This document shows, piece after piece, positions 12,645-34,909 of a stretch of 64,000 nucleotides of DNA (within the stretch, counting starts at the first letter, position 1; each line of letters starts with the position of its first letter). The notes beneath the pieces were generated by a model that saw nothing but the letters and a program-made list of their open reading frames with translations, made no database searches and was not told where the DNA came from. Location: assembly GCF_943181415.1 (NCBI RefSeq), contig NZ_CALPBZ010000001.1, forward strand, positions 558,001 to 622,000. The letters run 5' to 3'. Both the position numbers and the translations under genes were made by a program. The DNA comes from Microbacterium sp. Marseille-Q6648. GTDB taxonomy: Bacteria; Actinomycetota; Actinomycetes; Actinomycetales; Microbacteriaceae.

Positions 12645-13598
12645 TCAGTTTGTAACCTCGGCGATAAGCCAGGCAGCAACAGTGGACCGCCAACGCTCTT
12701 GGTCAGAGTTCCACGTCATCGTGTGATCCGCGTCGAAGACTTCGAGATGAACGAGATCTGGACGCAGCGCTGCAAGCCTGCGAGAGACGGCTGGCGGCGC
12801 CGAGTCGTCATCCGCTCCGTGGCAGATCAGCGTAGGTACTGCCAGCTCCTGCGCGCGCGAGATCCAGTTGAGATCCCCGAGAGGGATACTGCCAGGCAGG
12901 CCGACTGCGCGTGCGAGCAAAGGCGATATGAGCCACGGGAGCGCAAGGAGCCCCGCCGCGGCAGGCAGCCCGGCGCGAGCGCAGTTCGCCTTGATCGTCG
13001 CTACCCAGTCGAGAACGGGCGACTCAAGGACGAGCCCGGCTATCAGCCTCCTGTAACGCGGCCCCGCAGCGAGTTGGAGCGCGACCTGTGCTCCCATCGA
13101 CCAACCGAAGAGAACGACCTGACGCGCGCCCTGATTGATGGCGTACCGGATCGCAGCGTCCACGTCGTCGACTTCGGTGGCGCCGAGGGTTGACCGACCA
13201 GTTCCGCGTCTCGGGCCCTCGCCATCGTTCCTGTAGCTGACGACGAGGGACGTGTAGCCCAGTTCGGTGGTGACTCGCACACCTCGCAGCGTTCCGGCTC
13301 GCGGGCTGCCGAGCCCATGGATGTGGATAGCCCACCTCGTTGACTGCGAGTCGCTGCCATCGATGCGCCACGCTGGCGCAGGCCCCGACGGAGTGGGGAT
13401 GGCGATGTCGTATGCGCTGAGGCCCGCATCGATGGGCGTCAGGAAGTAGATGCCGCTCCACGAGGCGCGCTCTTCGGCTAGCGGTGTGAAGCCCGGTGCG
13501 GTTGCCGTCACTCGACGCGCGATGCGCCCAGGCCTACGCGGCCGGGCCGGGTCGATTCCGCTTCGGGCAAGCGTATTCGTTGGGCGCGACAGTCGCAT
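12645..13598 (-). CDS. Alpha/beta hydrolase
   Basis: About 317 aa from ATG 13598 (the frame stays open to 13808 but would overlap the divergent gene). Motifs: HIHGLGSPRAGT (oxyanion region), GWSMGAQVALQL (nucleophile Ser), ICHGADDDSAPP (acid) and DADHTMTWN (catalytic His). This is a serine hydrolase of unknown substrate, probably cytosolic or peripheral. A second, truncated copy lies at 17,702-18,184 in the same orientation. Its start is only 42 bp from the RCC1-ankyrin gene, so the two must share a control region. Confidence 0.75.
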   Translation of the reverse strand: MRLSRPTNTLARSGIDPARPRRPGRIARRVTATAPGFTPLAEERASWSGIYFLTPIDAGLSAYDIAIPTPSGPAPAWRIDGSDSQSTRWAIHIHGLGSPRAGTLRGVRVTTELGYTSLVVSYRNDGEGPRRGTGRSTLGATEVDDVDAAIRYAINQGARQVVLFGWSMGAQVALQLAAGPRYRRLIAGLVLESPVLDWVATIKANCARAGLPAAAGLLALPWLISPLLARAVGLPGSIPLGDLNWISRAQELAVPTLICHGADDDSAPPAVSRRLAALRPDLVHLEVFDADHTMTWNSDQERWRSTVAAWLIAEVTN

Positions 13599-13640
13599 GA
13601 AAGGCCGGGGCAGCGTTAGCGGGATCGATATGCTCACCGC

Positions 13641-16283
13641 ATGGTTGATCGACCCGCGCGTCCTCCGAGAACCGTCACCGCGATTGCCCTCGGGGATCAG
13701 CATGGACTCGCGCTCCTTGATGACGGGACGATCAGGACCTGGGGAAACGCGTACAAGCCCAGGCATGATCTGGATGAGGTCGTTGCGATTTCCGCCGGTT
13801 CGGTGCACAGCCTCGCGCTATTGCGCGACGGCACTGTCGCGGGCTGGGGGCATAGCGGTGCTGGCCAAGCCGATGTGCCTGAAAGCCTCAGCGGTGTCGT
13901 CGCGATCGCCGCTGGCGGGCGCCACAGCCTGGCACTACGCCGCGACGGAACCGTTGTGGGCTGGGGTGCGAACGATGATGGCCAATCTGAGCCCCCATAC
14001 TTCCTGCGCGACGTAACAGCGATTGCGGCCGGGGGGTGGCACAGCCTTGCACTCCGCAGCGACGGAAGCGTCGTTGCGTGGGGACATCCCGACTCCGACC
14101 AACGCCACGTCCCGTTCGGCCTCAGCGGCGTCATCGCCATTTCGGCCGGATACGAGAACAGCTCCGCGATCCTCGCCGATGGCTGGGTCATCGACTGGGG
14201 AAATGACCATGCGTTTATTGGAGTCCCGGACAGCTTTCGCAATGTCAAATCGATCACCTACGGCTGGAAGCATCGACTCGCGATCCTGGACGACGGCACA
14301 GTCGTCTCCGACGGTGGCTGGGCGGGCGGATTCCCGGTTCCGGCCGACCTCGAAAACGTGGTTGCGATCGCCGGCGCCACGATGGAGGGGAGCCATAACT
14401 CCTTTGTTGCGTTGACTAGCAGCGGCACGATCGTTGTGCTCAAGAGCCCGAGTATCGATTACATGGCCCAGCAGAACTCCGAGATGGGTCTCTCTGCTCG
14501 GCGATGGCCTGCGCTCGAGGTGCCGGCCGATCTCACCGGAGCTGAGGCAAACGATCAACTCGACTCGCCGCAAGGCGAGACCACCTCGACGACGGAGTTC
14601 CGGGACGAAGGAGACCAGCGCGATGAGCCCGACGCGGCCATCACGGCGCGCTCACTCCTCCATTGGTCGGCAGTAGGCGACGAAGCCCAGGTTCGCTCCT
14701 TGCTTGACAACGGTGCCGACCTTGCCGCAGCAGCAGACGAAGACGGCGATGGCGTCCTGCGATATGCGATGGGCACCAAGAGCGCGGGACTGTTCAGTCT
14801 TCTCCTCGGTCGAGGCGCTGATGCCAATGCTCCCAGCACAGGCGCCGCGGGCGAGCCTGGGCTTACGATCCTCCATGCCGTTGCGGGCATCGACTGGGCC
14901 GAAGGGATACGACTGCTGGTCGCGAACGGCGCAGAAGTGGACTCGGCACGTGATATCGGTATCACGCCGATGATGCTCGCAGCCGGAGCAGGTTGTGACG
15001 CCAGCGTGGCCGCGCTTGCCGATCTCGGCGCGGACATTGATGCATGCGACGATGAGGGGGACTCCGTTCTCTTCTATGCCGCGTCCAAGGGTCGTCGGAC
15101 CACCGTTGAGGGACTGCTTGAGCTCGGCGCGGATTGCGACACGGATCCAGGCGACTCAGGCCATACGCCGCTGACAATCGCAGCCCAGATGGCATCACCG
15201 CTCGGACAGCGGATGCCCGATGTCCCGTCGAGCGAGTTCGCACGCATCGTTGTGCAACTGCTTCGTGCCGGCGCCGATCCAGGGCCGATGTATGACGCCG
15301 GCCTCGTGTTGGTAAGGGGTGGCGAGACAGCGCCTCGAAGCGAGGTCAGCAGTCTGGTCAAGAATCACGACCATTGGGCGATCGCCTACCTGACTCCCGA
15401 AGGCCGCGCTCGAGCACCGTGGTTGGAAGCCGGGCCTCGCCGGCGAGAGACCCCTGGATCCGTGACTCTGCGCGAAGACCAGCCGGACAGCTACACATTC
15501 GCGCCCAGAGGTGGCATTCCCTACCGCGCGGACGGGCGTTTGACCGAGATGAGCGCTTTGGTGCAAGCACTCCGCACCGAGTATGACTTTCGCGGCCCCC
15601 TATCGACATCGACGGAACGGTGCCCAGCGGACTGGGATAGCCAACTCGCGGAGGCCGTAGCCAGCAAGAGGCAAGGCAACTTCTTCGACTCCGCCGCGAG
15701 GTATGTCCAGCTGTCTCGGACTTCAGGGGTCGTCTACGTTCAGCTACTCCTCGGGCTATACAAGACTGTCGCCAGCGCGGGGGACGTTGTACTTGCGTAC
15801 CGACTGCTGAGTGACATCGAGCGGATCGTCGGCAACGAGTCACAGACCTCGGACCACGGCGCCCGAATGATCGACGCCGTCGAGAGCGAACACGCACTTG
15901 TTGGGTACCTCCGCGACATAAACGGGAACGCGTCGTACAAGTTGCCGCGCGCGTATCCCGAAATTCTCCGCGACTGGCGTGAGTACCAGCAGCTCGTCCG
16001 CGACACCATGGCAAAAATCAAGAAAATCGACCGTGGCGGCTGCTACATCGCAACCGCGGTCTACGGATCCTACGATGCGACCCCAGTCTTAACGCTTCGC
16101 CGATTCCGCGATCGCGTCCTCGCGCGGTCGCCGATCGGAAAGGTGGCTATCCGCATCTACTACGCAATCAGCCCACCGCTCGCTCGTCACTTTGCGGGTG
16201 CATCTGCGCTAAATCGCGGTGCGAGAACCGCTCTCGACGCGCTTGTCCGCCTGCTCGATCGGCGGGGCTACGGCTCGGAGTAA
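13641..16283 (+). CDS. RCC1 propeller - ankyrin repeat - CFI-box C-terminal protein
   Basis: 880 aa. Residues about 11-290 hold seven RCC1-like units of about 39 aa (pattern V-x-A-I-x-x-G-x-x-H-S-L-A-L-x-x-D-G-x-V-x-x-W-G), enough for a full seven-bladed propeller. An acidic linker follows (about 300-335), then about six ankyrin-like repeats (about 337-560; LLDNGADLA, LLGRGADAN, LVANGAEVD, LADLGADID, LLELGADCD, LLRAGADPG). The region 570-790 is unassigned and partly helical. The C-terminus (about 798-850) is a CFI-box-like domain: GGCYIATAVYGSYD...VLTLRRFRDRVL...IRIYYAISPPLARHFA, Cys about 801. No signal peptide is seen. The function is unknown; the build suggests a large protein-interaction scaffold. 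Confidence 0.8.
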   Translation: MVDRPARPPRTVTAIALGDQHGLALLDDGTIRTWGNAYKPRHDLDEVVAISAGSVHSLALLRDGTVAGWGHSGAGQADVPESLSGVVAIAAGGRHSLALRRDGTVVGWGANDDGQSEPPYFLRDVTAIAAGGWHSLALRSDGSVVAWGHPDSDQRHVPFGLSGVIAISAGYENSSAILADGWVIDWGNDHAFIGVPDSFRNVKSITYGWKHRLAILDDGTVVSDGGWAGGFPVPADLENVVAIAGATMEGSHNSFVALTSSGTIVVLKSPSIDYMAQQNSEMGLSARRWPALEVPADLTGAEANDQLDSPQGETTSTTEFRDEGDQRDEPDAAITARSLLHWSAVGDEAQVRSLLDNGADLAAAADEDGDGVLRYAMGTKSAGLFSLLLGRGADANAPSTGAAGEPGLTILHAVAGIDWAEGIRLLVANGAEVDSARDIGITPMMLAAGAGCDASVAALADLGADIDACDDEGDSVLFYAASKGRRTTVEGLLELGADCDTDPGDSGHTPLTIAAQMASPLGQRMPDVPSSEFARIVVQLLRAGADPGPMYDAGLVLVRGGETAPRSEVSSLVKNHDHWAIAYLTPEGRARAPWLEAGPRRRETPGSVTLREDQPDSYTFAPRGGIPYRADGRLTEMSALVQALRTEYDFRGPLSTSTERCPADWDSQLAEAVASKRQGNFFDSAARYVQLSRTSGVVYVQLLLGLYKTVASAGDVVLAYRLLSDIERIVGNESQTSDHGARMIDAVESEHALVGYLRDINGNASYKLPRAYPEILRDWREYQQLVRDTMAKIKKIDRGGCYIATAVYGSYDATPVLTLRRFRDRVLARSPIGKVAIRIYYAISPPLARHFAGASALNRGARTALDALVRLLDRRGYGSE

Positions 16284-16532
16284 TCTCACGACGTCAAGGT
16301 GCGGTCACCGTCCCCGCGGTACTCGACATGCGCACGACGGCCGGCGCCCGCAACTGGCAAGCCAGCATCCGCGTCGCTGAGCGCCGTCAGCTGCACCAAG
16401 CAGAACCCGCTCACTATTGGTCAGCTCCTCGCTGTTGGCGCGCGTTTGGCTCGCTGGACTAAGGACGCAGCGGATGACGACCGCAACAGTGACGTGGTAC
16501 TCGGAAATCTCTCGCCGATTGCCCGCTCTAGT
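16284..16532. other. Region left of IS481-family element, no gene seen
   Basis: 249 bp between the RCC1-ankyrin stop and the IS. All six frames give only short, unrecognised frames. It ends in the target duplication TCTAGT (16527-16532). Confidence 0.4.
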
Positions 16533-17609
16533 TGTACCCGGCAGTCAGGTTGGTGACACCCGGCTGAGTGGGGTGCCGCTGATGGCTGAGTGGTATCGCT
16601 GAGTGTTGTAGTGCTCGATCCAGGGCGCAAGTGCGGCGGCGCGTTGGTCGTTCGAGGTGAAGATCTGTCGGTATGCCCATTCGGTCTGCAGGGTGCGGTT
16701 GAGTCGTTCAACCTTGCCGTTCTGCCAGGGGCAGTGGGGGCGGATCAGCACGTGTTTGGCGCCGAGCGCGGTGAGCACGTCGCGGACATCGTTGGAGAGC
16801 CGGTAGCTGAAGTGGTTGTCGGTCATGACCCGCTCGATGCGAGTGATGCCACGATCTCGGAAGTATGCGGCGGCCCGCGCGAGGAACGCGGCGCAGGTCG
16901 CGCCCTTCTCGTCCGGGTGGATCTCGGAGTACGCCAGTCGGGAGTGATCATCGACGAGTGAGTGGACGTAGTCGAACCCGATCCGCGCCTTCTTGCGCGC
17001 GGCGGTGTCGCCGGCCGATCTGCCGTGCGCACGCCAGCCACCACCCTCAGGGATGCGGCCCAGCTTCTTCACGTCCATGTGGACCAACTCGCCCGGTCGG
17101 GCGCGTTCGTAGCGGACAGTGGTGGTCTTCGATGCGCGGATGACGACCCCGGTGAGCGGGTCGCACTCGACCAGACGCGGCACGTGATGCCGGCGCAAGA
17201 TCGCGGTGATCGTGCGCGCAGGAACACCTGTCATCACGGCGAGGCGATCGGGGCCCTGCCGCAGCTGGCGACGCACCGTGACCACCCGCAACTCCACCTC
17301 GAGCGGCGTCCGGCGCGGCATGGAATGCGGACGCGAGGACCGGTCACCGAGGCCGGCGACACCCTCAGCCCGGAACCTGTTGACCCAGCGGTGCGCGCAT
17401 TGACGCGACACCCCAAGCTCTTTGGCGACGTGAGAGACCGGACGATGCTGCACCAGCACCCGCTCGACGAGCAGAACTCGGCCACGGACATTCAGTCGGG
17501 CATTAGCGTGAGACACGAGACCTCCTGGCAGTGAAGAACTAGACAGCTCCACTAAGCCAGGAGGTCTCCTCATCTCACAAGAACGTCACCAACGTCCCTG
17601 CCGGGTACA
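16533..17609 (-). mobile_element. IS481-family insertion sequence (1,077 bp)
   Basis: Terminal inverted repeats TGTACCCGGCAG...GTTGGTGAC at both ends (16533 inward and 17609 inward). It is flanked by a 6-bp duplication TCTAGT (16527-16532 and 17610-17615), which fits the NCTAGN target of IS481. One intact transposase gene lies inside. Clean ends and intact gene indicate a recent insertion. Confidence 0.93.
16545..17516 (-). CDS. IS481-family transposase
   Basis: 323 aa from GTG 17516, chosen because AGGAGG lies 4 bp upstream and the product then begins MSHANARLNVRGR, the usual family start. Helix-turn-helix region (VSHVAKELGVSRQCAHRWVNRF), then an rve/DDE catalytic core: Asp in ELVHMDVKKLG, Asp in RVMTDNHFSY, Glu in WQNGKVERLNRTLQTEW. 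It appears intact and so potentially active. It has the same orientation as the IS. Confidence 0.93.
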   Translation of the reverse strand: MSHANARLNVRGRVLLVERVLVQHRPVSHVAKELGVSRQCAHRWVNRFRAEGVAGLGDRSSRPHSMPRRTPLEVELRVVTVRRQLRQGPDRLAVMTGVPARTITAILRRHHVPRLVECDPLTGVVIRASKTTTVRYERARPGELVHMDVKKLGRIPEGGGWRAHGRSAGDTAARKKARIGFDYVHSLVDDHSRLAYSEIHPDEKGATCAAFLARAAAYFRDRGITRIERVMTDNHFSYRLSNDVRDVLTALGAKHVLIRPHCPWQNGKVERLNRTLQTEWAYRQIFTSNDQRAAALAPWIEHYNTQRYHSAISGTPLSRVSPT

Positions 17610-17691
17610 TCTAGTGCGCGCAGTGGACAAGCTAAGCCGTCTGCTACAGCCGCGGCGCGCGTAGTGCATTCGAATTACAGCTGGATGGGGC

Positions 17692-18184
17692 TCAGGAGCG
17701 GCTGGATAGCCAGGCGGCGACAGTGGATCGCCAGCGCTCTTGGCCGGAGTTCCACGTCATCGTGTGATCCGCATCGAAGATTTCGAGCTGAACGAGATCT
17801 GGGCGCAGTGCTGCAAGTTTGCGAGAGACGGCAGGGGGCGCCGAGTCGTCATGCGCTCCGTGGAGGATCAGAGTAGGGACTGCCAGCTCTCGCGCGCGTG
17901 CGATCCAGTCGAGATCCCCGAGAGAGATGGCGCCAGGCAAGCCGACTGCGCGTGCGAGCAAAGGCGACATGAGCCACGGGAGGGCGAGGAGCCCCGCCGC
18001 GGCAGGCAACCCGGCGCGAGCGCAGTTCGCCTTGATCGTCGCGACCCAGTCGAGAACGGGCGACTCAAGCACGAGCCCAGCGATCAGCCGCCCGTAACGC
18101 GGCCGCGCAGCGAGCTGGAGCGCGACCTGTGCTCCCATCGACCAGCCGAAAAGAAAGACGCGACGCGCGCCTTGATCGATGGCG
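17692..18184 (-). pseudogene. Alpha/beta hydrolase, 5'-truncated second copy
   Basis: Reads IDQGARRVFLFGWSMGAQVALQLAARPRYGRL...LILHGAHDDSAPP...DADHTMTWN, very close to the hydrolase at 12,645-13,598. The nucleotide match runs about 17,702-18,184 against 12,662-13,144 and stops at the base where the IS3-family element begins. The nucleophile, acid and His motifs remain but the N-terminal half is gone, so it is not expected to be functional. Confidence 0.85.
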
Positions 18185-18216
18185 GGCGTGAGGAACGAAC
18201 TGGTGACAGTTTCGGT

Positions 18217-19092
18217 TTAGGCCGCGAGTGTGAGCGGCTCGGTTAGCTTGGCTTCGAACTCGATGGGCGTCAACCCGCCGAGGGTGTCCTGGGCTCGCTG
18301 GCGGTGATACTTCCGCTCGATCCAGACGACGATGGCGAGGCGAAGCTCCTGCCGCGTCGCCCACCGCTGCTGGTTGAGGACGTTCGTCTGCAACAGTGAC
18401 CAGAAGCTCTCCATCGCCGCGTTGTCCCCGGCCGCGCCGACGCGCCCCATCGATCCGACCATGTCGTGACGGCGCAGCTCGCGGGCCATCGCCCTGCTCC
18501 GGAACTGGCTGCCCCTGTCCGCGTGCAGGATGCAGCCGGCCACCTCACCGCGGCGGGTGACGGCGTTGCGCACGGCATCGACGGCGAGCTTCGCTGTCAT
18601 CCGATCCGAGATCGAGTAGCCGACGATCCGGTTCGAGAACACGTCCTTGATCGCGCAGCAGTAGAGCTTGCCTTCGCTCGTCCAATGTTCCGTGATGTCC
18701 GTGAGCCAGAGCCTGTTCGGCGCATTGGCACGGAATACCCGTTGCACGTGGTCGTCGAACACGGGAGGGCCGGCCTTCTTGCCCTTGCCCCGCCGGCGGC
18801 GTTGCGCGGACGAGAGGATCCCGGCCTGCGAGCACAGCTTCCACGCCGTCCGGCGACTCATCCGCCAGCCAGCCCGGCGCGCCTCGTCGGCCAGGTATCG
18901 GTAGCCGAACGTCGGGTCCTCGTGGTGCGCATCGTGCAGCGCATTGATCCGATAGGCGCGGAGCACATCCGCGTCCCGGATCGGGTCGCCTCTCCACCGG
19001 TAGTAGGGCTGGCGGGCGAGCTTAAGGACCCGGCACGACACCGACACGGGGATCCCCGCGTCGGCGAGCTCAGCAACGAGCGGGTATGTCAT
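18217..19092 (-). CDS. IS3-family transposase OrfB (integrase core)
   Basis: 291 aa. HTH_21-like N-terminus (GIPVSVSCRVLKLARQPYYRW), then the rve core with Asp in RLWLTDITEHW, Asp in ILHADRGSQFRS and Glu in NAAMESFWSLLQ; the DDE triad is complete. It starts 4 bp inside OrfA (ATGA). It may also be made as an OrfAB fusion by -1 frameshifting at CCCAAAA just before the OrfA stop. Confidence 0.93.
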   Translation of the reverse strand: MTYPLVAELADAGIPVSVSCRVLKLARQPYYRWRGDPIRDADVLRAYRINALHDAHHEDPTFGYRYLADEARRAGWRMSRRTAWKLCSQAGILSSAQRRRRGKGKKAGPPVFDDHVQRVFRANAPNRLWLTDITEHWTSEGKLYCCAIKDVFSNRIVGYSISDRMTAKLAVDAVRNAVTRRGEVAGCILHADRGSQFRSRAMARELRRHDMVGSMGRVGAAGDNAAMESFWSLLQTNVLNQQRWATRQELRLAIVVWIERKYHRQRAQDTLGGLTPIEFEAKLTEPLTLAA

Positions 19093-19394
19093 TTTGGGGA
19101 GCCACCGAGGCGCAGGTTCGCCTGCGACAGATACGCCGCCGCTCGCCTGAGGACCTCGTTCTCCTGCTCGAGCAACCGGATCCGCTTCTTCAACTCCCGC
19201 GCCTCCGCTGCGTCTGCAGCGGTCTGACCAGGACGGTTGCCGTATTCGACGTCGGCCTGACGGAGCCAGTTCTGCAACGTCGCTTCGCTGATGCCGAAGT
19301 CAGTGGCGATCTGCTTGATGGTGACGCCGCTCTCGCGGCTACGAGCGACCGCGACAACGTCCTCGCGGAACTCTCTGGGATAGGGACCAGGCAT
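19089..19394 (-). CDS. IS3-family transposase OrfA
   Basis: 101 aa from ATG 19394 (GAGGATG upstream). Helix-turn-helix (GVTIKQIATDFGISEATLQNWLRQ) and a C-terminal leucine-zipper-like segment (ARELKKRIRLLEQENEVLRRAAAYL) typical of IS3 OrfA. The last codons CCA AAA TGA contain a C-CCA-AAA slippery heptamer directly at the OrfB start. Confidence 0.9.
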   Translation of the reverse strand: MPGPYPREFREDVVAVARSRESGVTIKQIATDFGISEATLQNWLRQADVEYGNRPGQTAADAAEARELKKRIRLLEQENEVLRRAAAYLSQANLRLGGSPK

Positions 19395-19462
19395 GATGAC
19401 ATCCTCCCCGCCAGCGCCTCCCGGCACTAACGATCAGTTGTCACCAATTCCTTCCTCACGCC

Positions 19463-19713
19463 CATGCCACACCAACTTTGAGCATGCTCAACCAGGAGGT
19501 ACTCACCCAGCACTGATGATCGGAGTGGCCGGCACTCCACCCAGCCGCGCGAGGGCGCGCCCGAGTTTCATGGGGACGCCTGCTAGAGCCTCAACAGTTG
19601 TGCGACCGTCTCGGGTCGGTCGTTCGCGCGCTCGCCCGTCGGCTCCGGTGAGATCTCGCGTACCTCCCACAGGAAGCCGCTATGCCGGCTGTTCAGAAGG
19701 AGGTGCCCACACC
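19463..19713. other. Non-coding start of the conjugative module, with two dyad symmetries
   Basis: TTGAGCATGCTCAA (19478-19491) is a perfect palindrome. GGAGTG-5-CACTCC (19522-19538) is a perfect stem-loop. No reading frame is convincing. The segment precedes a long one-way gene run, so it could hold its promoter, an operator or an origin of transfer. Which of these it is cannot be told from sequence alone. Confidence 0.45.
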
Positions 19714-20814
19714 ATGACTCACCAATCCGCTGCCGTCGGTTCCACTGAGGCGAAGCTCGAACGGCTGCATGCTCAGCTGGCGGATGCCGTGGCCACGCTG
19801 GTGACGAGCGATGACTGGGTGCGAGCTCTTGAGTTCGCCGCGCGATTCCGCTCTCGTTCGTTCAACAACACCCTGCTGATCTGGATGCAACACCTCGCTG
19901 CGTTCGAGCAGGGCAGGGTGGCTGAGCCCGCACCAACGTACGTGGCGGGGTTCCGGCAGTGGCAGGCGCTCGGCAGGTCGGTCGACCGCGGACAGACCGG
20001 CTACATGATCTTCGCGCCGATCCTCGGGCGGTTTGCGTCCCAAACCCCACAGGTCGCCGAGTCATGGCGTCGTCTTGCGCCTCGCGAGAACCCGAGAGGT
20101 AATGACGAAGTGCGCACGCGAATGATCGGCGTGCGGCCTGCATACGTGTGGGATGCGTCGCAGACGAGCGGTGTCCCGATTCCCCACGCGCCGACTCCGC
20201 AGTTGCTCGCGGGCGAGGCGCCACAAGGCCTTTGGGACGGCCTGGCGTCCTTGGTACGCGGACACGGGTACACACTTCGCATTGTTGGGAGCGATCGCGA
20301 TCTCGGCGGAGCCAACGGCATCACTGACTACATCACGCGGAGCGTTGCCGTTCGGGGCGACATAGACCCCGCGGCTCGGACGAAGACCTTGGCGCACGAG
20401 CTGGCGCACGTGATGCTGCACGGCCCCGACAACGCGGATGCCGAACTCCATCGCGGGATCGGGGAGGTCGAGGCGGAGTCCGTTGCCCTGATGATCGGAG
20501 CGGCCCACGGCCTCGACACATCGGGTTTCACCATCCCGTACGTGGCGACCTGGGCAGCATCCGTCGACGGAAAGACGCCGGTGGAAGTCGTGCAAACGGC
20601 TGGTGAGCGAGTCCGGACGGCAACGGTCACGATCCTCAAGGGATTGCCGACGGTGCAAATCGGCTCAGGCGATCCGCCCGGTCTGACGAGGGAAGCGGGT
20701 CACGGTGCACTTCGGTCAGGCCTTGCTGGTTCGCTGGAACGGTTCGATGATGTCCGATCTGCGAGGAGTCGGAACTCGTTCGTCCAATCCGTAGCCTCGG
20801 CCCGGGATCTGTGA
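19714..20814 (+). CDS. ArdC-like protein with zinc metallopeptidase motif
   Basis: 366 aa from ATG 19714 (AAGGAGG 10 bp upstream). Residues about 10-115 resemble the ArdC N-terminal ssDNA-binding domain (FRSRSFNNTLLIWMQ...YVAGFRQWQALGRSVDRGQTGYMIFAPI). An ImmA/IrrE-like peptidase domain follows with HELAH at 228-232 and a downstream EVEAESVALM Glu as probable third ligand. ArdC-type proteins protect incoming DNA during conjugation. It is the first gene of the transfer module and its TGA overlaps the next start (GTGA). Confidence 0.8.
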   Translation: MTHQSAAVGSTEAKLERLHAQLADAVATLVTSDDWVRALEFAARFRSRSFNNTLLIWMQHLAAFEQGRVAEPAPTYVAGFRQWQALGRSVDRGQTGYMIFAPILGRFASQTPQVAESWRRLAPRENPRGNDEVRTRMIGVRPAYVWDASQTSGVPIPHAPTPQLLAGEAPQGLWDGLASLVRGHGYTLRIVGSDRDLGGANGITDYITRSVAVRGDIDPAARTKTLAHELAHVMLHGPDNADAELHRGIGEVEAESVALMIGAAHGLDTSGFTIPYVATWAASVDGKTPVEVVQTAGERVRTATVTILKGLPTVQIGSGDPPGLTREAGHGALRSGLAGSLERFDDVRSARSRNSFVQSVASARDL

Positions 20815-21701
20815 TGGACACCGTCGAGCTGTTCGCCGGAATGATTGGTCTCTCGCCGCGGGAAGGCGCCGCTCGATTTGCTGCGGCAGGAGTCCCGATC
20901 TTCCCCTGCCGGCCAGCGGAGAAGCGGCCGCTCACAGAGCACGGGTTCCACGACGCGACATCCGACGACCGCCAGATCGGCCGATGGTGGTCTCGATGGC
21001 CCGAAGCGAACATCGGAATGCCGACCGGGCGAGCTTCCGCCGTCGAGGTCGTAGACATCGATGTGCACGGGCGAGTGCGCGGTTTCGCTGCCTTCGAACT
21101 CGCTCGCCGGGAAGGTCTCGTGGATCGCTGGCAGGCGCTGGTGAAGACGGCATCCGGTGGGATGCACGCCTACTACCCCGCAGACCCTGATCGCGTTCAG
21201 GCATCGTGGCAGGCCGCCCGCGCCGGCATCGACTTCCGGGGTGAGGGCGGCTACGTGATCGTACCGCCGTCGCAAGTGCTGTTCGAAGGCAACAGATCGG
21301 CGTATGAGCTGATCGGCGCCGGACGCGGGGACGCCGTGTCTATCGACGGATCGGCGCTTCGACAGTTCCTTGACCCGAGGCCGGCCGCTGCTGCGATGCC
21401 CGCGCAGGCCCGCCGCGATGTCGACTCGGAGCGTCTCGCGGCGTGGCTGGCCGCACGTGCTGAGGGCGAGCGGAACCGCGCCCTTTACTGGGCCGCATGC
21501 CGGCTCGCCGAGAACGGCGTCACTGATCAGAGCGCGCGCAATGTGCTCGGACCGGCGGCGGAGCACGCGGGGCTGCATCAGGCCGAGATCCTGACGACCA
21601 TTCGATCTGCGTACCGAACGGTGGTGGGGCCGACGCCACCCTTTCGCATCAGTAGTGGCAGCCCAGCATCCCGCTCGCTCAGCAGGCAGGTGATCTCGTG
21701 A
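20811..21701 (+). CDS. Bifunctional primase/polymerase-type protein (Prim-Pol)
   Basis: 296 aa from GTG 20811 (ATG 20814 is an alternative). Prim-Pol motifs: VPIFPCRPAEKRPL near the N-terminus, catalytic VVDIDVHG (Asp 82, Asp 84), SGGMHAYY (His 119) and GIDFRGEGGYVIVPPS (Asp 141). The last third is a small helical region. It probably primes replication of the excised or incoming element. It overlaps the neighbours on both sides by 4 bp. Confidence 0.85.
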   Translation: MMDTVELFAGMIGLSPREGAARFAAAGVPIFPCRPAEKRPLTEHGFHDATSDDRQIGRWWSRWPEANIGMPTGRASAVEVVDIDVHGRVRGFAAFELARREGLVDRWQALVKTASGGMHAYYPADPDRVQASWQAARAGIDFRGEGGYVIVPPSQVLFEGNRSAYELIGAGRGDAVSIDGSALRQFLDPRPAAAAMPAQARRDVDSERLAAWLAARAEGERNRALYWAACRLAENGVTDQSARNVLGPAAEHAGLHQAEILTTIRSAYRTVVGPTPPFRISSGSPASRSLSRQVIS

Positions 21702-22354
21702 TCCTCGGCGCTACGGACCCGCGGTCAGGACGGATTGCCGTGTGGACCGCGGTTGTCGGCACAGTATTCATCGCTGTCGGTGCGTTCTGGTTGTCCTTCA
21801 CTTCACTCACGGACCTCGCTCGCAGTTCCGGTATCGCGCCGACGCAGGCGTGGGCGTGGCCACTCATCGTGGACGGGATCATCGTCGTCGGAACCGTTGC
21901 CGTCGTAGCGCTCGCCGGAGAGCGGGGCGCATGGTATCCGTGGATGCTGCTCATGATCGGTGCGGCCGTATCGGTCGCCGCCAACTCGATCCACGCCCTT
22001 GTCGCGGCCGACGCCGACGTTCTTCCCGTTCTGGCGGCGTCTGTGGCCGCAGTGCCTCCGTTGGTGCTTCTCGCGATCACACACCTGACGGTCGTTCTCA
22101 CCCAGCGATTCCGGTTTCAGGTCTCCTCCACAACCGAGTCGTCACCGGACCTATCCACAGAAGTCGTTCGACTTCGCCCGCTGCCCAATATTCCGGAGAA
22201 GGGTGCCCGCAGAGACGTTGCGGCGCTGATGCGTCAGCGCGGGATGTCGAACAAGGAGATCGCGAGCGCCACGGGAGTTCATCCGTCGACAGTCGGCCGA
22301 TGGTTCGCGGGGGCGATCGGCACACCTGAGGTACAGAAGGGAGCTACGTCATGA
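21698..22354 (+). CDS. DUF2637 membrane protein with C-terminal helix-turn-helix
   Basis: 218 aa. About four TM helices in residues 14-130 (VVGTVFIAVGAFWLSF, AWPLIVDGIIVVGTVAVVAL, WMLLMIGAAVSVAANS, VPPLVLLAITHLTVVL) follow the DUF2637 pattern of SpdB-type transfer proteins from actinobacterial mobile elements. Residues about 165-205 form an HTH (DVAALMRQRGMSNKEIASATGVHPSTVGRWF). A membrane-tethered DNA binder is likely. GTG start, overlapping the previous stop. Confidence 0.8.
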   Translation: MILGATDPRSGRIAVWTAVVGTVFIAVGAFWLSFTSLTDLARSSGIAPTQAWAWPLIVDGIIVVGTVAVVALAGERGAWYPWMLLMIGAAVSVAANSIHALVAADADVLPVLAASVAAVPPLVLLAITHLTVVLTQRFRFQVSSTTESSPDLSTEVVRLRPLPNIPEKGARRDVAALMRQRGMSNKEIASATGVHPSTVGRWFAGAIGTPEVQKGATS

Positions 22355-22767
22355 ACGAGTACGAGCGAGTCGATCAGTCTCGTCTGCCACTACGCCCTGG
22401 CACGTCGGAGCGGGAACGGGAACTCTCTGGCAAGCCGTCCCCCGAGGAGGTTTCCGAACTGGCGCGGCACGGCGATCCTTCACTCGCGAGGCAGCCACTA
22501 TCCCCCTCCGGCGCTGAGCCGGTTCGAAGTGAGGTCGTCTGGATGCGACCTACGGAACTCGTTCCCGCCGTCACGGGGCGCGTCGCGGGGCAGGGAATCG
22601 ACCTCGAGTCCTCGCTCGCGCGGCGAGCGCGCACCATCCCGACGCAGGGAGTCGCAGCAACTCGCCGAGCAATCCGTGAACGGGCGCTTCGCCTCCCGCC
22701 GGTCGGGGCGTTTGGGAACGGTCGCGCTCTTCACGGATCGGTCCGCCGATCTGGAATCGGTCGGTAG
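22351..22767 (+). CDS. Hypothetical mobile-element protein
   Basis: 138 aa, starts in the previous stop codon (ATGA). Hydrophilic; the central VVWMRPTELVPAVTGRVAGQGIDLESSLARRAR and RAIRERALRLPPVGAFG look like a conserved core. I do not recognise a family. Position within the run of overlapping genes is the main support. Confidence 0.6.
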   Translation: MNEYERVDQSRLPLRPGTSERERELSGKPSPEEVSELARHGDPSLARQPLSPSGAEPVRSEVVWMRPTELVPAVTGRVAGQGIDLESSLARRARTIPTQGVAATRRAIRERALRLPPVGAFGNGRALHGSVRRSGIGR

Positions 22768-22778
22768 CGAGGTTTGCC

Positions 22779-23678
22779 ATGTCGAACCAGGGTTTCCCGT
22801 CAGCTGGCGCAGCGTCGGCGCGCTCGACGCGGACGAACGACTCGTCGGAGTCAGCGAGCAAGCCCGCTGCGTTCGAGAGCTCGGAGGGTCTGCGTGAGCT
22901 GCTCGAACGTCTGGCCGCGCAAGATCACGGTGCCTGGCGCCGCGACGCCGAGGCGGCAGCCCTCATGGGGCACGTGGTTCGGCGATACGCCAAGCTCGCT
23001 CGCAAGCACGGGCTTGATCCATGGGATGCTGCCGCAGCGGCGTTCGATGCGATGCGCTCTGCGTCCGTGCGCAATGCCGACGATCCGTGGGCGGTAGTCA
23101 CGCGGGCGGTGCAGGTGACGCTGATCGCTGAGGAACGCGCGAACGGACTGCTGTGCTCCGTCTACCAGGCGCGCCGGCCGGAGTTCTCGTCGTTCCATGA
23201 CCCCGAGCGATTCAGCGACCGGGAGAACCCCCTGAGCGACTATCACCCGGCACTTCGTGTGCAGTCGATCGGGGACGTGCCCGATGATGGCCACACATCT
23301 GACGGCGCCGGGATAGGTGATGCAGTCGAGAATGCGATCGCCTTCATGACCCTGCTCGGCTGGCCGCGCACGCCGGCGCGCACGGCGATGGAGTACATCT
23401 GCGCACGGCTCAGCGAGGTCCCTTCGCGTGCGACGGCCTGGGAATCGCTCCGGCGCGACGTTCACGGAAGAACCCTCCTCGATCTGTCGTCCGCGTCGTG
23501 GAATGGATTGCTCCGCGCCGTCCTCGGTAACCCGGAACCGGAGGTCGCACGGACGACAGCTGGCCGCGGCATCCTGCTTCGCCTGCTGATCGGCGAACCG
23601 CTGCGTTCTCTCCTGACGGATGATGACCTCGTCCTCGCGGTCAGTCTCGCCGCACCCGCCGAGCGGTCGAGGCGGTGA
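22779..23678 (+). CDS. Hypothetical mobile-element protein
   Basis: 299 aa, ATG 22779. Ser-rich first 40 residues, then mostly helical (RELLERLAAQDHGAWRRDAEAAALMGHVVRRYAKLARKHGLDPWDAAAAAFDAM), with WAVVTRAVQVTLIAEERANGLL and ENAIAFMTLLGWPRTPARTAMEYICARL. It lies directly before parB with a GTGA overlap, which hints at a role in plasmid-like maintenance. No family recognised. Confidence 0.65.
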   Translation: MSNQGFPSAGAASARSTRTNDSSESASKPAAFESSEGLRELLERLAAQDHGAWRRDAEAAALMGHVVRRYAKLARKHGLDPWDAAAAAFDAMRSASVRNADDPWAVVTRAVQVTLIAEERANGLLCSVYQARRPEFSSFHDPERFSDRENPLSDYHPALRVQSIGDVPDDGHTSDGAGIGDAVENAIAFMTLLGWPRTPARTAMEYICARLSEVPSRATAWESLRRDVHGRTLLDLSSASWNGLLRAVLGNPEPEVARTTAGRGILLRLLIGEPLRSLLTDDDLVLAVSLAAPAERSRR

Positions 23679-24685
23679 CCGTGGGAACCAACACCGGCCA
23701 CATCGAGCTCGAACGATCGATCGAATCGATCGTCGTCGGGAAGCGACACCGCACCGAATACGGGGACATCGACGAGCTCGCCGACTCGATCACCCGCGAC
23801 GGCCTGCTGCAGCCGGTCACCGTGACCCCGGAAGGCGTCTTGGTGTGTGGCGCTCGTCGGCTCGAAGCGTTGAAGCGGCTGGGCGAGAAGACGATCAAGG
23901 TGTGGGTGCGGTCTGGCATCTCGGATCGGCTCGCCGAGCTGTTGGCAGAGCAGGCCGAGAACCTCCTGCACAAGCCGCTCACACCGACAGAGGCGGCAGC
24001 CCTGTACACCGAACTGAAGGATCACATCGCCGACGACGCGACTCGCCGTCAGGCCGCGACCCGCTTCGGCCGTCCCGATGCTCGGCATGGAAGTGACGGT
24101 GGTGCCACCGTGGCACCACCGCAGTTCAGGTCAGGCAAGAGTCGCACGCAGGCAGCCCAAATGGTCACCGGCAAGGCGTCGTACACCACGCTGGAGCGCA
24201 TCGCCGAACTGCAGCGCGTTGTCGCTGACCCTGGCGCTGACCCTGCGCTGAAGGAGAAGGCGAGCGAAGAGCTGCGGCTCATCGACGAGGGAGGAAGTGT
24301 CGCCGCGTCGCACGCGCGAATCCGGCAACTCCTTGAGCCGGAACCGCCACAACAATTCGAGGACTTCGAAGCGCCCGAAGACTTCGAGCCGCCTGACGAA
24401 CTCGAGCAATTGGCGAGCGCGGCGCTTGCGAGAGTCAAGCAAGCCAAGCGGAATCGGCGCACGACCCGGTCCCGCGCCGTCGCGACGCATGTCTTTCCCG
24501 TCCGGGCGTTCGTGCGTGTGTGGGAGGACCTCGACCTCTGGTGGACGCACTTCGATGTCGCAGCTGTGGCCTCCGAACTGACTGACGAGCAACTCGAGCA
24601 GTTCGAGTCGACTCTCGCGTCCACCGTGGAGTTCTTCTCGACGCTCCGCAGCGCGAGGGTGCAACTGAGGCGGGAGATCGCGTAA
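23675..24685 (+). CDS. ParB/Srx N-terminal domain protein
   Basis: 336 aa from GTG 23675. ParB/Srx domain in residues about 10-100: RSIESIVVGKRHRTEYGDIDELADSITRDGLLQPVTVT, VLVCGARRLEALKRLG and EQAENLLHKPLTPTEAAAL. HTH-like segment about 120-180. The C-terminal half is acidic then helical. ParB family proteins bind parS or act as regulators; no ParA is in the window, so a partition role is uncertain. Confidence 0.85.
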   Translation: MTVGTNTGHIELERSIESIVVGKRHRTEYGDIDELADSITRDGLLQPVTVTPEGVLVCGARRLEALKRLGEKTIKVWVRSGISDRLAELLAEQAENLLHKPLTPTEAAALYTELKDHIADDATRRQAATRFGRPDARHGSDGGATVAPPQFRSGKSRTQAAQMVTGKASYTTLERIAELQRVVADPGADPALKEKASEELRLIDEGGSVAASHARIRQLLEPEPPQQFEDFEAPEDFEPPDELEQLASAALARVKQAKRNRRTTRSRAVATHVFPVRAFVRVWEDLDLWWTHFDVAAVASELTDEQLEQFESTLASTVEFFSTLRSARVQLRREIA

Positions 24686-25365
24686 TGGTCGCCACGCTGC
24701 GGCCCCGGCGCCGCCTCGTACTTTTCCTCTCAATCGGATTCGGTGTGTTGGCCGCGCTCGTCGGCGTAGGGCTGTACGGCTTGGCCCTAGCGCCGACGCC
24801 AAGCACGCCGACGATTGCTGTCGATCCGGCAGCGCCGGCTACCCCACCCGGTGAGCCCGAACCGAGCGCCTCGAGCGCAGAGCTTCCGCCGATCCGCTCG
24901 ACATCGGATGCCGAGTCCTTCGCGCGCGACGCTGCCTCCGCGCTCATCAATTGGGACACCGCCACCGACTTCGATCCGGTCGACTACGCACAGGTGATCG
25001 TCGATGCAGGCGATCCCTCTGGAGCTGAGACCGCCGGCCTTGCCTCCGATGTACGCATCTACCTGCCGACGCCGGAAGCCTGGATGACGCTGCGCAGCTA
25101 CGGCACGCGCCAGTGGCTCACCATCGATGAAGCGTTCGTGCCGGCATCCTGGAACGACGCGATCGATCAAGCGACGCCTGGCCAAATCCTCCCCGGAACC
25201 ATCGCGTACACGATCACGGGAACACGCCACCGCGCGGGCATCGTAGGGACCCAGGCGCAGGAGACCTCTCGACCAATCGCATTCACCCTCTTCATCGCCT
25301 GCGAGCCGAGTTTCGACGAATGCCGCCTGCTCCGGCTGTCCGAGGTCGACAACCCGCTCCGCTGA
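24685..25365 (+). CDS. Single-pass membrane protein, VirB8/TcpC-like candidate
   Basis: 226 aa. N-terminal arginines then one TM helix (LVLFLSIGFGVLAALVGVGLYGLAL), a Pro/Ala-rich linker (about 40-70) and an extracytoplasmic mixed alpha/beta domain. This is the topology of VirB8/TcpC proteins, and it stands at the head of the membrane-complex genes. The match to VirB8 rests on topology and position only. ATG overlaps the parB stop by 1 bp (TAATG). Confidence 0.6.
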   Translation: MVATLRPRRRLVLFLSIGFGVLAALVGVGLYGLALAPTPSTPTIAVDPAAPATPPGEPEPSASSAELPPIRSTSDAESFARDAASALINWDTATDFDPVDYAQVIVDAGDPSGAETAGLASDVRIYLPTPEAWMTLRSYGTRQWLTIDEAFVPASWNDAIDQATPGQILPGTIAYTITGTRHRAGIVGTQAQETSRPIAFTLFIACEPSFDECRLLRLSEVDNPLR

Positions 25366-25377
25366 CGGGCGCCGAAC

Positions 25378-26547
25378 ATGAAGAAGCTCGTGATCGTCCT
25401 CGCGGTCGTTCTGTTCACGCTGCCGCTCGCCGGCTTGATCGCGCTCCCCCTCGTCCTCTCCCCCGCCGCGCTCGCTGCCTGCCAGGCATCCGGCCAGCTC
25501 GTGGTCACCGAGGTCCCGGAGAACTTGACTGCAACACGGAGCGACGGGGTGCCGGTAACCCTCGGGCACACACAACTCACTCGTGCCGCGACGATCATCA
25601 CGGTAGGCAGCGGTATTGAAGGTGTCGGGCGCCAGGGGGTGGTGATCGGGCTGATGGCTGCGCTCACCGAGTCGACCCTGCGGATGCTGGCGAACCCCGC
25701 CCATCCCGCGTCGCTCAGCATGCCCAACGACGGCGTCGGAAGCGACCACGACTCACTCGGCCTGTTTCAGATGCGCCCGACCTCTGGTTGGGGCACCGTC
25801 GACGAGCTCATGGATCCGGACTACCAGGTGCGCGCATTCTTCGGCGGAGCAGACGGACCCAACTTCCCCTCCCCTGCGGGGCTCCTCGACATCCCGGGTT
25901 GGCAGTCAGCTGATCCCGGCTCGGCTGCGCAAGCTGTCGAGCGCTCAGCTTTCCCCGACCGCTACCAGCGGTATCAGCCCGTCGCGGAAGCCATCCTCGT
26001 CGCGCTGACCCGGCCGCCCTCATCGTCGCCCGGAGGGGGCACATCTCTCGATTCCGTCCCTGAGACGACCCGCATCGTCTTTCCCCTCCCGAGCGACACG
26101 TGGGTGCGGGCAAGCGGCTACGGCGGGCGCACTGACCCAATGACCGGTCGACCCGCATTCCATGCAGGAACCGACTTCTCTGCGGCAGACGGCACGCCTA
26201 TCTTCGCGATCGCAGACGGGATCGTCAGCTGGGCTGGGCCGTATGGGGGCTACGGACAGCTGATCGTCATCGAGCACACGGTCAGGGGAGAGCGGGTGGC
26301 GTCGGCGTACGCGCACATGTGGCCAACGGGTGTCCACGTGACGGTCGGCGAGCGCGTCACCGCCGGCGCACACATCGGTGACGTCGGGTCATCCGGCAAG
26401 TCCACGGGATCGCACCTGCACTTCGAGATCCGTCCCGGCGGTGCGTTCGAACCGGCTACAGACGCAGACCCGTGGCTCGCCGAGCACGGGGCGGAAGGAT
26501 TGGACGCCGCTACCGCTGGCAGGACAGCGTGCGCGTCGGGCGCATGA
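25378..26547 (+). CDS. Bifunctional cell-wall hydrolase: lysozyme-like domain plus M23 peptidase
   Basis: 389 aa. Signal anchor at 1-30 (KKLVIVLAVVLFTLPLAGLIALPLVLSP). A lysozyme-like region about 60-200 (GRQGVVIGLMAALTESTL...HDSLGLFQMRPTSGWG) and an M23/LytM domain about 255-370 (HAGTDFSAADGTPI, VGSSGKSTGSHLHFEI; the HxxxD and HLH zinc ligands are present). It should open peptidoglycan for assembly of the secretion channel, as VirB1-type enzymes do. Confidence 0.85.
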   Translation: MKKLVIVLAVVLFTLPLAGLIALPLVLSPAALAACQASGQLVVTEVPENLTATRSDGVPVTLGHTQLTRAATIITVGSGIEGVGRQGVVIGLMAALTESTLRMLANPAHPASLSMPNDGVGSDHDSLGLFQMRPTSGWGTVDELMDPDYQVRAFFGGADGPNFPSPAGLLDIPGWQSADPGSAAQAVERSAFPDRYQRYQPVAEAILVALTRPPSSSPGGGTSLDSVPETTRIVFPLPSDTWVRASGYGGRTDPMTGRPAFHAGTDFSAADGTPIFAIADGIVSWAGPYGGYGQLIVIEHTVRGERVASAYAHMWPTGVHVTVGERVTAGAHIGDVGSSGKSTGSHLHFEIRPGGAFEPATDADPWLAEHGAEGLDAATAGRTACASGA

Positions 26548-26557
26548 GGTGAGCGAA

Positions 26558-26824
26558 ATGGACATCTTCCCGGACTTCGGAGCGGTTGGAGGAGCGGGTG
26601 ACCTCCGCGCGATCGTCGGCGCGCTCCTCATGTACGTCCTGATCTTCGGGGTACTCGCGATCCTCATCTGCGCCGCCACATGGGCGATCGCGTCTACGAG
26701 CGGGAACTACCAGTCGGCCATGCGAGCCCGTACCGGCCTCCTTGTTGCCGTCGGCGCAGCGGCACTTGCCGGCGCGGCGGTCGCCTGGATGAACTTCCTC
26801 ATTGGGGTCGGGCAACAGCTCTAG
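26558..26824 (+). CDS. DUF6112 small membrane protein, paralogue 1
   Basis: 88 aa from ATG 26558. Two TM helices (LRAIVGALLMYVLIFGVLAILICAATWAIA and LLVAVGAAALAGAAVAWMNFLIGVG) joined by a short loop. The size and two-helix topology resemble VirB2/TrbC pilins, and the gene sits before the VirB6-like gene. DUF6112 assignment is from memory of such element genes. Confidence 0.72.
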   Translation: MDIFPDFGAVGGAGDLRAIVGALLMYVLIFGVLAILICAATWAIASTSGNYQSAMRARTGLLVAVGAAALAGAAVAWMNFLIGVGQQL

Positions 26825-26922
26825 CCAGAGTGCGTGCACGGACTGGGCGAGTCGACGGATCTCGGGGACGCCGCACGCACCTTGTACGCAGGTTCGTTTC
26901 TGCGCAGACAAGGAGCACGACC

Positions 26923-27192
26923 GTGATTGACATTGTTCCCAACGGGTCGGGACTTCCCGGCATCGAGCAACTCCGCGTCATCGTCGGCGCAGTGATGACA
27001 GTCGGGCTCATTCTCGCCGTTCTCGCCCTCATCATTGCCGCTGTCGCGTGGGGGTATGGAGCCAACTCATCGAACCCCCATCTCGCCTCACGGGGCAAGC
27101 TCGGCGTCCTAGTAGCGTGCGGCGCGGCACTCATCTGCGGGGCGTCGGTCACGCTCGTGAACTTCTTCTGGGGTGTCGGCCAGTCCGTCTGA
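26923..27192 (+). CDS. DUF6112 small membrane protein, paralogue 2
   Basis: 89 aa from GTG 26923 (AAGGAG 7 bp upstream). Same build as the preceding gene: IEQLRVIVGAVMTVGLILAVLALIIAAVAWGYG, loop, LGVLVACGAALICGASVTLVNFFWGVGQSV. The shared ending (NF..GVGQ) shows the two are paralogues. They may form a two-component membrane or pilus element. Confidence 0.74.
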   Translation: MIDIVPNGSGLPGIEQLRVIVGAVMTVGLILAVLALIIAAVAWGYGANSSNPHLASRGKLGVLVACGAALICGASVTLVNFFWGVGQSV

Positions 27193-27225
27193 GCAAGACG
27201 CGGCCGATTGAGAGGAACGACGCGA

Positions 27226-28575
27226 GTGGGCGGGGTCTGCGATATCCCGGCGATCGCCGAGGTATGCCAGACCGTCGGGTCGGGTGTCACTTCGCTCGTT
27301 GCCGCGCCCTTCGATTGGCTCGCCCATACGCTCGCCGCAGCCGCCGCGTGGTTCTTCGAAGCCGTCTGGGCGGTGTTCGACACGACCACCCTCGTCGACG
27401 TCACCGGTGACCAGTACACCCAGGTGTACAACCTGCTCTTCGGCGTCGCGCTGTTCGTCATGCTCGTGTTCTTCTGCCTGCAACTGATCACCGGATTGGC
27501 GCATCGCGATCCAACCGCGCTCTCCCGGGCTGCTGTGGGGCTCGGCAAGTCCGTGCTCGGATCGTTCGTCGCGATCGCCCTGACGGGGACGCTGCTGGAG
27601 GTCACGGATCAGTTGGCCATCGGGATCGTCCGGGCAACCGGAAACACGATGGAGGGAATGGGCGACAGAATCGCCCTGATGGCCGCCGGGCTGGTCGCGA
27701 TCAACATCGCGAGCCCCGGCGTCGGCGCGATCATGACGATCTTCCTCGCAGGGCTCGCGATCGCAGCCACCGCGATTGTGTGGTTCTCGCTCCTCATCCG
27801 CAAAGCCCTGCTCCTCGTGGCGATCGTGTTCGCGCCCATCGCACTGGCCGGATTCTCCTGGGATGCTACCCGCGGCTGGTTCGGCAAGTGGGTGGCGTTC
27901 GTTGTGGCCCTCGTGTTCTCCAAGCTCGTGCTTGTCGTCCTCTTCCTCGTCGCGATCAACCAGACCGCGGCGCCGATCGACCTTGATCTCGCCTCCATCA
28001 GCGATCCTGTGGCCGGAGTTGTACTGATGCTCGTCGCAGCCTTCGCGCCATACATGACCTACAAGTTCATCTCGTTCGTCGGCGTCGATATGTACCACGC
28101 GATGTCGACCGAACAGGAGGCTAAGGGAGCGCTTAATCGGCCCGTCCCGGTGCCGGTTAGCCCCGCGAGTGCGAAGTCGGCGAAGTCGATCCTCGACGGA
28201 GGTGGCACCTCGAGCGAGTCGGCGCGCCCGGTGGCGACGAGCGCCGCTGCCAACACCGCTGGATCTGGTGCCAGCGCGGGTGCGTCTGGTGCAGCAGCGT
28301 CCGGCGCAGGAACTTCAGGCGCTGCGGCGGCCGCCGGCCCGGCCGCCGCAGTCATCGTCGGCGGTCAGGTGGTCGGCAAGGCAGCCTCCGCCGGACCCAA
28401 GCTCGGCAACGCCACCGGATCAGCAGCCATGGGACATACCGAGGGCGCCACTCCGACAGACATACCACCGTCACCGACGACCTCCCCGGCGGCCGGGCAA
28501 CCGATCCCACAGCCGCGCACACCGACTCCGCACCCGCGGCCGATCCCCACTCCGCCCGAAAGGACGACAGCATGA
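27226..28575 (+). CDS. TrbL/VirB6-like conjugal transfer membrane protein
   Basis: 449 aa from GTG 27226 (gagaggaac upstream; a TTG at 27208 is less likely). At least six TM helices between about 30 and 290, including LLFGVALFVMLVFFCLQLI and WFSLLIRKALLLVAIVFAPIALAGF, the conserved VirB6/TrbL segment. The C-terminal 150 residues are low-complexity Ala/Gly/Ser then Pro-rich (PIPQPRTPTPHPRPIPTPP). It is an inner-membrane channel part. Its stop overlaps the next start. Confidence 0.83.
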   Translation: MGGVCDIPAIAEVCQTVGSGVTSLVAAPFDWLAHTLAAAAAWFFEAVWAVFDTTTLVDVTGDQYTQVYNLLFGVALFVMLVFFCLQLITGLAHRDPTALSRAAVGLGKSVLGSFVAIALTGTLLEVTDQLAIGIVRATGNTMEGMGDRIALMAAGLVAINIASPGVGAIMTIFLAGLAIAATAIVWFSLLIRKALLLVAIVFAPIALAGFSWDATRGWFGKWVAFVVALVFSKLVLVVLFLVAINQTAAPIDLDLASISDPVAGVVLMLVAAFAPYMTYKFISFVGVDMYHAMSTEQEAKGALNRPVPVPVSPASAKSAKSILDGGGTSSESARPVATSAAANTAGSGASAGASGAAASGAGTSGAAAAAGPAAAVIVGGQVVGKAASAGPKLGNATGSAAMGHTEGATPTDIPPSPTTSPAAGQPIPQPRTPTPHPRPIPTPPERTTA

Positions 28576-30035: not shown

Positions 30036-30090
30036 CGCGCGGGGACACCTCGCGCACCTGACTGACGACTTCTGTTGCAAGGGACACGCA

Positions 30091-34419: not shown

Positions 34420-34473
34420 GGGACGCACCTACCAGGTGATGGCCGACCTGCGGCCCTTTGGTAGGAGCATCCG

Positions 34474-34902: not shown

Positions 34903-34909
34903 GCGCCTG

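Follow-up and report, generated by a model that had tools for sequence, protein, structure and literature searches.

An RCC1-type propeller, an ankyrin array and a CFI-box in one protein carried by an ICE-like element of Microbacterium

What does a bacterial protein do that joins an RCC1-type propeller, an ankyrin array and a CFI-box in one chain? The question is raised by a gene of Microbacterium sp. Marseille-Q6648, located within the 64,000-nucleotide stretch of DNA analysed here (the window). The gene is one open reading frame (ORF) of 880 residues with an ATG start and no internal stop, and it occurs in one copy in its 3.49-Mb genome. A first-pass annotation, made from the sequence letters, had named the three parts, knew of no described protein that combines them and pointed to a hydrolase next to the gene in a mobile region. 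The features of the gene and its surroundings are collected in Table 1.

Table 1. Features of the RCC1-ankyrin-CFI-box gene and of the element around it (window positions)
Feature	Position	Strand	Basis
RCC1-ankyrin-helical-CFI-box protein, 880 aa	13641..16283	+	ORF list, Pfam, NCBIfam
Seven RCC1/BLIP-II-type propeller units, residues 12-284	13674..14492	+	Pfam, PDB matches; unit boundaries by eye
Propeller units: residues 12-46, 47-85, 86-124, 125-163, 164-201, 202-239, 240-284			Boundaries by eye
Ankyrin array, about residues 339-550	14655..15290	+	Pfam, PDB matches; unit count by eye
Helical segment, residues 633-795, perhaps TPR-like	15537..16025	+	Homology to segments of other CFI-box proteins
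CFI-box with Cys801, residues 800-880	16038..16280	+	NCBIfam, alignments
Inferred cargo unit: gene, 106 bp upstream and 10 bp downstream	13535..16293	+	Homology breaks
Alpha/beta hydrolase, 5'-truncated remnant	12648..13534	-	Pfam, DNA comparison, hydropathy
C-terminal fragment of a second hydrolase copy, 89.6% identical in DNA to the first copy (481 bp)	17703..18184	-	
IS481-type insertion sequence; inverted repeats 16511-16557 / 17585-17631, 79% complementary	16511..17631	-	
Insertion sequence, presumably of IS3 type from its two-ORF layout; inverted repeats 18184-18208 / 19439-19463; located where the second hydrolase copy breaks off	18184..19463	-	
ICE-like backbone: ArdC-like, Prim-Pol, ParB-like, M23 peptidase, TraG-type coupling protein, tyrosine integrase	19472..42094		
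tRNA-Ala near the tyrosine integrase	42428-42503		

Domains of the 880-residue protein

Every named domain scored over its curated cut-off in Pfam or NCBIfam, which bears out the earlier RCC1, ankyrin and CFI-box calls. RCC1_2 (PF13540) was matched with E 5.1e-39 and 131.5 bits against a cut-off of 22, and Ank_2 (PF12796) with E 1.3e-17 and 64.5 bits against 27.3. CFI_box_CTERM (NF041770) was matched with E 4.7e-21 and 74.4 bits against 40, residues 801-869 aligning with positions 1-69 of the 69-position model. Pfam scored five RCC1_2 stretches separately, and the whole-propeller model WD40_RLD reached 107.2 bits against a cut-off of 150. All seven RCC1 units proposed earlier can nevertheless be written out by eye; they are 35-45 residues long, and units 6 and 7 are degenerate. 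The ankyrin array holds about six units by eye and three Ank_2 stretches in Pfam.

The top PDB matches of the propeller are BLIP-II proteins (E 2.5e-38 to 4.3e-38) and those of the ankyrin array are ankyrins and DARPins, so that among the best 60 of 359 matches the counterparts of both repeat types are binding proteins. PMC9218822 treats RCC1 and BLIP-II propellers as a group and describes BLIP-II as a secreted binder. The window propeller resembles BLIP-II (PDB 1jtd, 3qhy) in unit sequence and in having seven units. However, BLIP-II is a secreted inhibitor, whereas the window protein has additional ankyrin and CFI parts and shows no export signal by hydropathy. Neither a signal peptide nor a membrane segment was recognized in the hydropathy profile, the highest 19-residue mean being 1.37, and 1.12 within the first 60 positions.

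The CFI-box was expected, from the family name and the alignments, to be C-terminal and to carry a conserved Cys, and the window protein shows both features (residues 801-869 of 880, Cys present). The conserved Cys noted at about position 801 was confirmed. All 13 of 13 rows of a first alignment (A1) and all 17 of 17 of another (A3) carry the Cys at position 801, the latter count being partly built in, as the other rows of A3 came from pattern scans that require the Cys. A profile search without this requirement gave 15 distinct matches over the cut-off, and the Cys is present in 14 of them (in L049 by eye); no Cys motif was found in the fifteenth, L192. Invariant residues of the CFI-box include C, T, R, D and Y. 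Comparison of the CFI-box profile with the PDB gave nothing significant (best E 0.4), and Pfam had no match at E 10. We found no literature naming CFI-box, CFIATA, CFI-box-CTERM or CFI_box.

The region between the ankyrins and the CFI-box had been described as helical and unassigned. A helical segment is indeed present, but it is not without kin. Homologous segments of residues 633-795 occur in other actinobacterial CFI-box proteins, namely L027 (31% over 148 residues), L061 (37.5% over 88), L043 and L028. Its profile retrieved three PDB sequences, two from the TPR region of OGT and one from SRP72, which we take to be TPR proteins, with non-significant E values of 0.19-0.63. The segment is perhaps TPR-like, judging from these alignments.

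Relatives of the CFI-box and of the whole architecture

The CFI-box is sparsely distributed. Matches over the cut-off were detected in 8 of 295 genus genomes, 4 of 396 order genomes and 5 of 396 phylum genomes (the source genome being counted in each), or in 9, 5 and 11 when matches at E 0.001 under the cut-off were included. None of the 14 control genomes had a match over the cut-off; weaker matches occurred in Bacillus subtilis and Lactococcus lactis. Broad housekeeping presence was thus not seen, and the count in the genus speaks against a housekeeping role. By their record titles, CFI-box loci come from actinobacteria, clostridia, bacteroidetes, spirochaetes and further groups.

Within the searches made here, the combination of all three modules was seen in this protein alone. 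A collection of 84,980 species was scanned with the motif GC[YF][IV]ATAVY, which leaves more divergent CFI-boxes outside its reach. By simple patterns, no second RCC1-ankyrin-CFI protein was found among the best 80 of 335 relatives (79 loci). Likewise, no second ORF with RCC1 and ankyrin repeats was found among the matches listed for 398 family genomes (E 1e-10, at most three candidates scored per genome). The full combination is present in 1 of 99 genus genomes, and no place in the plasmid and phage collections covers 80% of the query. Our literature search found nothing on point for it. The search for the same architecture therefore yielded no other example within this scope, and the earlier remark that no such protein has been described held up. 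The combination is new to these searches, and the modules themselves are known.

Partial versions of the architecture were found in several forms. A propeller joined to a CFI-box without ankyrins is encoded by Microbacterium aoyamense (L051, the same locus as L024), Microbacterium sp. CBA3102 (L052, with L044 nearly identical) and A20 (L059), and G047 (L030). Three of these (L051, L052 and L059, among the best 80 of 335) match the query from residue 3 to residues 875-877 and lack ankyrins, as judged by pattern plus Pfam or alignment. In L032, L036/L114, L071 and L076, an ankyrin array precedes the CFI-box as in the window protein, and no propeller was seen. The TPR protein L027 and the helical proteins L028, L043 and L061 have a helical segment before the CFI-box, again with no propeller seen. 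The window protein resembles other CFI-box-CTERM proteins (NF041770) in its C-terminal domain and Cys motif, whereas none of them has RCC1 and ankyrin repeats together by simple patterns among the best 80 of 335. The architectures of the scanned loci rest on such patterns, a subset being checked by Pfam.

Enzymatic or other N-termini also occur. In L031 (5178-10029) and, with the same layout, in L046, an operon comprises an unassigned gene, a kinase gene whose product ends in a CFI-box and, behind it, VWA and PP2C genes. The genes flanking the L031 kinase on both sides are common to L046. A PIN match in L031 was under the cut-off (23.0 against 32 bits), and its zinc ribbons were recognized by eye. 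The CFI-box is C-terminal here as in the window protein, but the enzymatic N-terminus and the operon partners differ. L042 (7265-10903) combines an eCIS_core (PF13699) N-terminus (70.9 bits against 22) and a CFI-box in one ORF; its ending is uncertain because about 300 residues continue past the CFI-box in the ORF as read. Across 94 ORFs from 92 scan loci, the CFI-box starts 72-128 residues before the ORF end, and five of the 94 ORFs have a hydrophobic segment, some short ORFs having possibly misplaced starts. By eye, L202 (G1296) has a hydrophobic N-terminus and, unlike the window protein, a hydrophobic tail past the CFI-box. L110 was considered as a J-domain protein and rejected, Pfam giving TPR only.

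A tree of 27 CFI-boxes (82 columns) was weakly resolved, with one of its 23 inner branches starred and L042 on a long branch. It nevertheless rejects a single RCC1-CFI clade (p-AU 0.0105), and the M. aoyamense and window CFI-boxes sit in different, weakly supported parts. The N-terminal types require 12 changes on the tree, a number reached by 0 of 200 shuffles (average 17.0), and the five RCC1 rows require three against 4.7 (as low in 9 of 500). This clustering suggests that part of the combinations is inherited and not freshly shuffled. The window CFI-box is closest to that of L027 (71% over 80 residues) among the 26 other CFI-box proteins compared, and the C-terminal module as a whole has its nearest relatives among TPR/helical CFI-box proteins. 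For the propeller, the genus search gave as top match an RCC1 protein that has no CFI-box. At the level of sequence comparison, a mosaic origin of the protein is apparent, its nearest relatives varying from domain to domain.

The neighbouring hydrolase and the mobile element

The hydrolase beside the gene had been put forward as a possible partner, and this did not survive comparison with its relatives. Intact relatives in L173, L174 and L175 have 384-400 aa and 86-90% DNA identity. In all three, homology to the window hydrolase stops at 13534, about 87 codons into the L173 gene. About 87 N-terminal residues, including a hydrophobic anchor, have accordingly been lost from the window copy; the L173 and L174 hydrolases, both measured, start with a hydrophobic segment of mean 2.11. 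A possible new start is the GTG at 13511, giving 288 aa without a hydrophobic start. As the Pfam-matched core is retained, residual activity may be possible. The second copy, also a fragment, terminates at the IS3-type element. At 14 related hydrolase loci (8-11.5 kb each, E 1e-3), no RCC1, ankyrin, helical or CFI match was found. Because the hydrolase is truncated and its relatives stand without these domains, it is no credible partner. In the related elements of L173, L174 and L175, the hydrolase is preceded by a DUF6545-like gene (22.1 bits, under the cut-off of 24.4, as scored for L173 only), ahead of which L173 has an ImmA-like gene with an HEFAH motif by eye and no Pfam match.

A second RCC1-CFI gene also adjoins a hydrolase of the same superfamily. 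In M. aoyamense, the RCC1-CFI ORF has such a hydrolase about 80 bp upstream of it (43.5% identity over 269 aa). The window hydrolase is a remnant of a second family and no member of this one, for which every one of 99 genus genomes has a match (E 0.001 or better). At 29 other loci examined for it, sufE follows within about 100 bp in 16 and after a larger gap in 6; no sufE lies in the stretch examined in the remaining 7. The interval between hydrolase and sufE is thus common, and the M. aoyamense RCC1-CFI gene is one extra gene within it. A partnership argued through M. aoyamense is weakened by this genus-wide presence beside sufE, and the other RCC1-CFI loci (L030, L044, L059) gave no hydrolase match. 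L024 (6143-9762) shows a lone RCC1-CFI gene between the widespread hydrolase and sufE, the latter recognized by eye, with a GC3 of 0.72 against 0.898 for the hydrolase.

The mobile setting itself was supported, as the ICE-like element around the gene also encodes an integrase, a coupling protein and a Prim-Pol. Homology to related elements picks up again at 19472. A search for an attachment-site repeat over about 40 kb left of the window and its first 13 kb gave only a 14-bp match (E 0.064). The 3' flank of the L174 hydrolase matches window positions 16294-16369 (76 bp, 86.8%), a stretch that immediately follows the CFI-box gene. Together with the homology end at 13534, this makes the gene and its 106 bp upstream probably a foreign unit, the left border resting on three relatives and the right one on the single 76-bp match to L174. 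GC3 is 0.706 in the CFI-box gene. It is 0.762-0.766 in the integrase and two transfer-region ORFs, reaches 0.816 and 0.849 in two transporter ORFs to the left, and is 0.889 in a large ORF beyond the tRNA (58945-61671), assumed to be chromosomal. The value of the CFI-box gene would fit a foreign origin, short of proof.

Other genes of the window were noted in passing. Positions 11974-12528 (minus strand) encode a YhcG-type PDDEXK nuclease that matches part of its family profile and is a PADLOC candidate (PDC-S02). Two tandem near-identical genes (4095-5910, 97.7% over 605 bp) are of universal-stress type by eye, and a DabA-type inorganic carbon transporter subunit is encoded at 137-2626 (plus strand).

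Possible roles and candidate partners

We tentatively favour, with somewhat less than even confidence, a horizontally acquired cytosolic adaptor that is probably non-enzymatic, has several binding surfaces and is the single-gene cargo of the ICE-like element. Recognition of partner macromolecules would fall to the propeller and the ankyrin array, and the helical segment and CFI-box would tie it to a common cell component, also used by other CFI-box proteins. On this reading the protein would act by binding, and the CFI-box would be a shared docking or assembly module. Since the CFI-box has neither a Pfam match nor a significant PDB match, this docking role is a guess, and its invariant C, T, R, D and Y could alternatively point to catalysis. 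The selective setting would be biological conflict or element maintenance; an effector, decoy or defence role, as first suggested, may be possible.

Three main rivals have to be weighed against the adaptor. The gene might be a passenger, without function or only transient, that arose as a chance fusion through recombination in a cargo region rich in IS elements and gene fragments. Its occurrence in one genome agrees with this, as do the two truncated hydrolase copies, the partial nuclease and the two IS elements nearby. Nevertheless, 880 codons are open, all domains score over their cut-offs and the invariant CFI-box positions are kept, and we consider a passenger unlikely. The element-borne position, the repeat arrays and the patchy distribution would also suit anti-phage defence, in which the repeats would detect some phage product, leaving it to the C-terminal module to trigger a response. 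This is less likely again, as no known effector domain was found and PADLOC gave two matches, both inside the ankyrin stretch (PDC-M72A, 344-519; Ankyrin, 422-517), with no match to a known anti-phage system outside the repeats. Slightly more doubtful still is a component of a stress or conflict system of TerY-P type (a kinase-VWA-PP2C layout), which would work with a kinase, a VWA protein and a phosphatase encoded elsewhere in the genome. The kinase of L031, with its terminal CFI-box, its VWA and PP2C neighbours and the flanking genes common to L046, is the argument for it; however, no such genes are among the annotated window ORFs, and on the tree the window CFI-box does not join the kinase CFI-boxes in their weakly supported clade.

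Export figures in two further explanations, both very improbable. RCC1 and ankyrin repeats are eukaryote-like, and the protein could be an effector delivered to eukaryotic cells, like the RCC1-type Ran activator of Legionella described in PMC3777869. NCBIfam did list Dot/Icm ankyrin effector models, although the best reached 34.4 bits against a cut-off of 600. The best 60 of 359 PDB matches include BLIP-II and no RCC1 chains for the propeller, and the lack of a hydropathy export signal makes an exported effector less likely. The same BLIP-II matches would favour a secreted BLIP-II-like inhibitor or surface binder. Against this stand the missing N-terminal hydrophobic segment and the ankyrin and CFI parts that follow the propeller.

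Beyond the adaptor reading of this one protein, the CFI-box may be a module that spans phyla and links one shared cell process to many different front ends, enzymatic or for recognition (propellers, ankyrins, TPRs, kinases, perhaps eCIS_core). Mobile elements would repeatedly add front ends, three of which stand in this chain. We regard this generalization as conceivable and rather doubtful. With nearest relatives that differ from part to part, the window protein is a good illustration of such modularity. The CFI-box itself is most worth following: if it is a shared docking or output module, a partner found for one protein would explain a multi-phylum domain.

Candidate partners were sought among the neighbours of CFI-box genes. 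No neighbour gene was common to the 22 loci compared, 21 of them with a CFI-box, in a comparison based on a crude ORF choice that included some antisense frames. Apart from CFI-box/RCC1 proteins and a transposase (three loci), neighbour genes were common to at most two loci. When the loci were filtered for small proteins that combine a charged tail and one or two hydrophobic segments, 3 of the 22 were marked, with none in the window; similar proteins were seen by eye in L030 and L043. Such a protein is a possible partner. Near CFI-box genes, small proteins of this kind, hydrophobic at the N-terminus and charged at the tail, are encoded in L028 (9141-9977), L043 (8297-9001), L030 (5647-6282) and L058 (11366-12157). 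Those of L030 and L058 are related, and that of L028 matches DUF4241.
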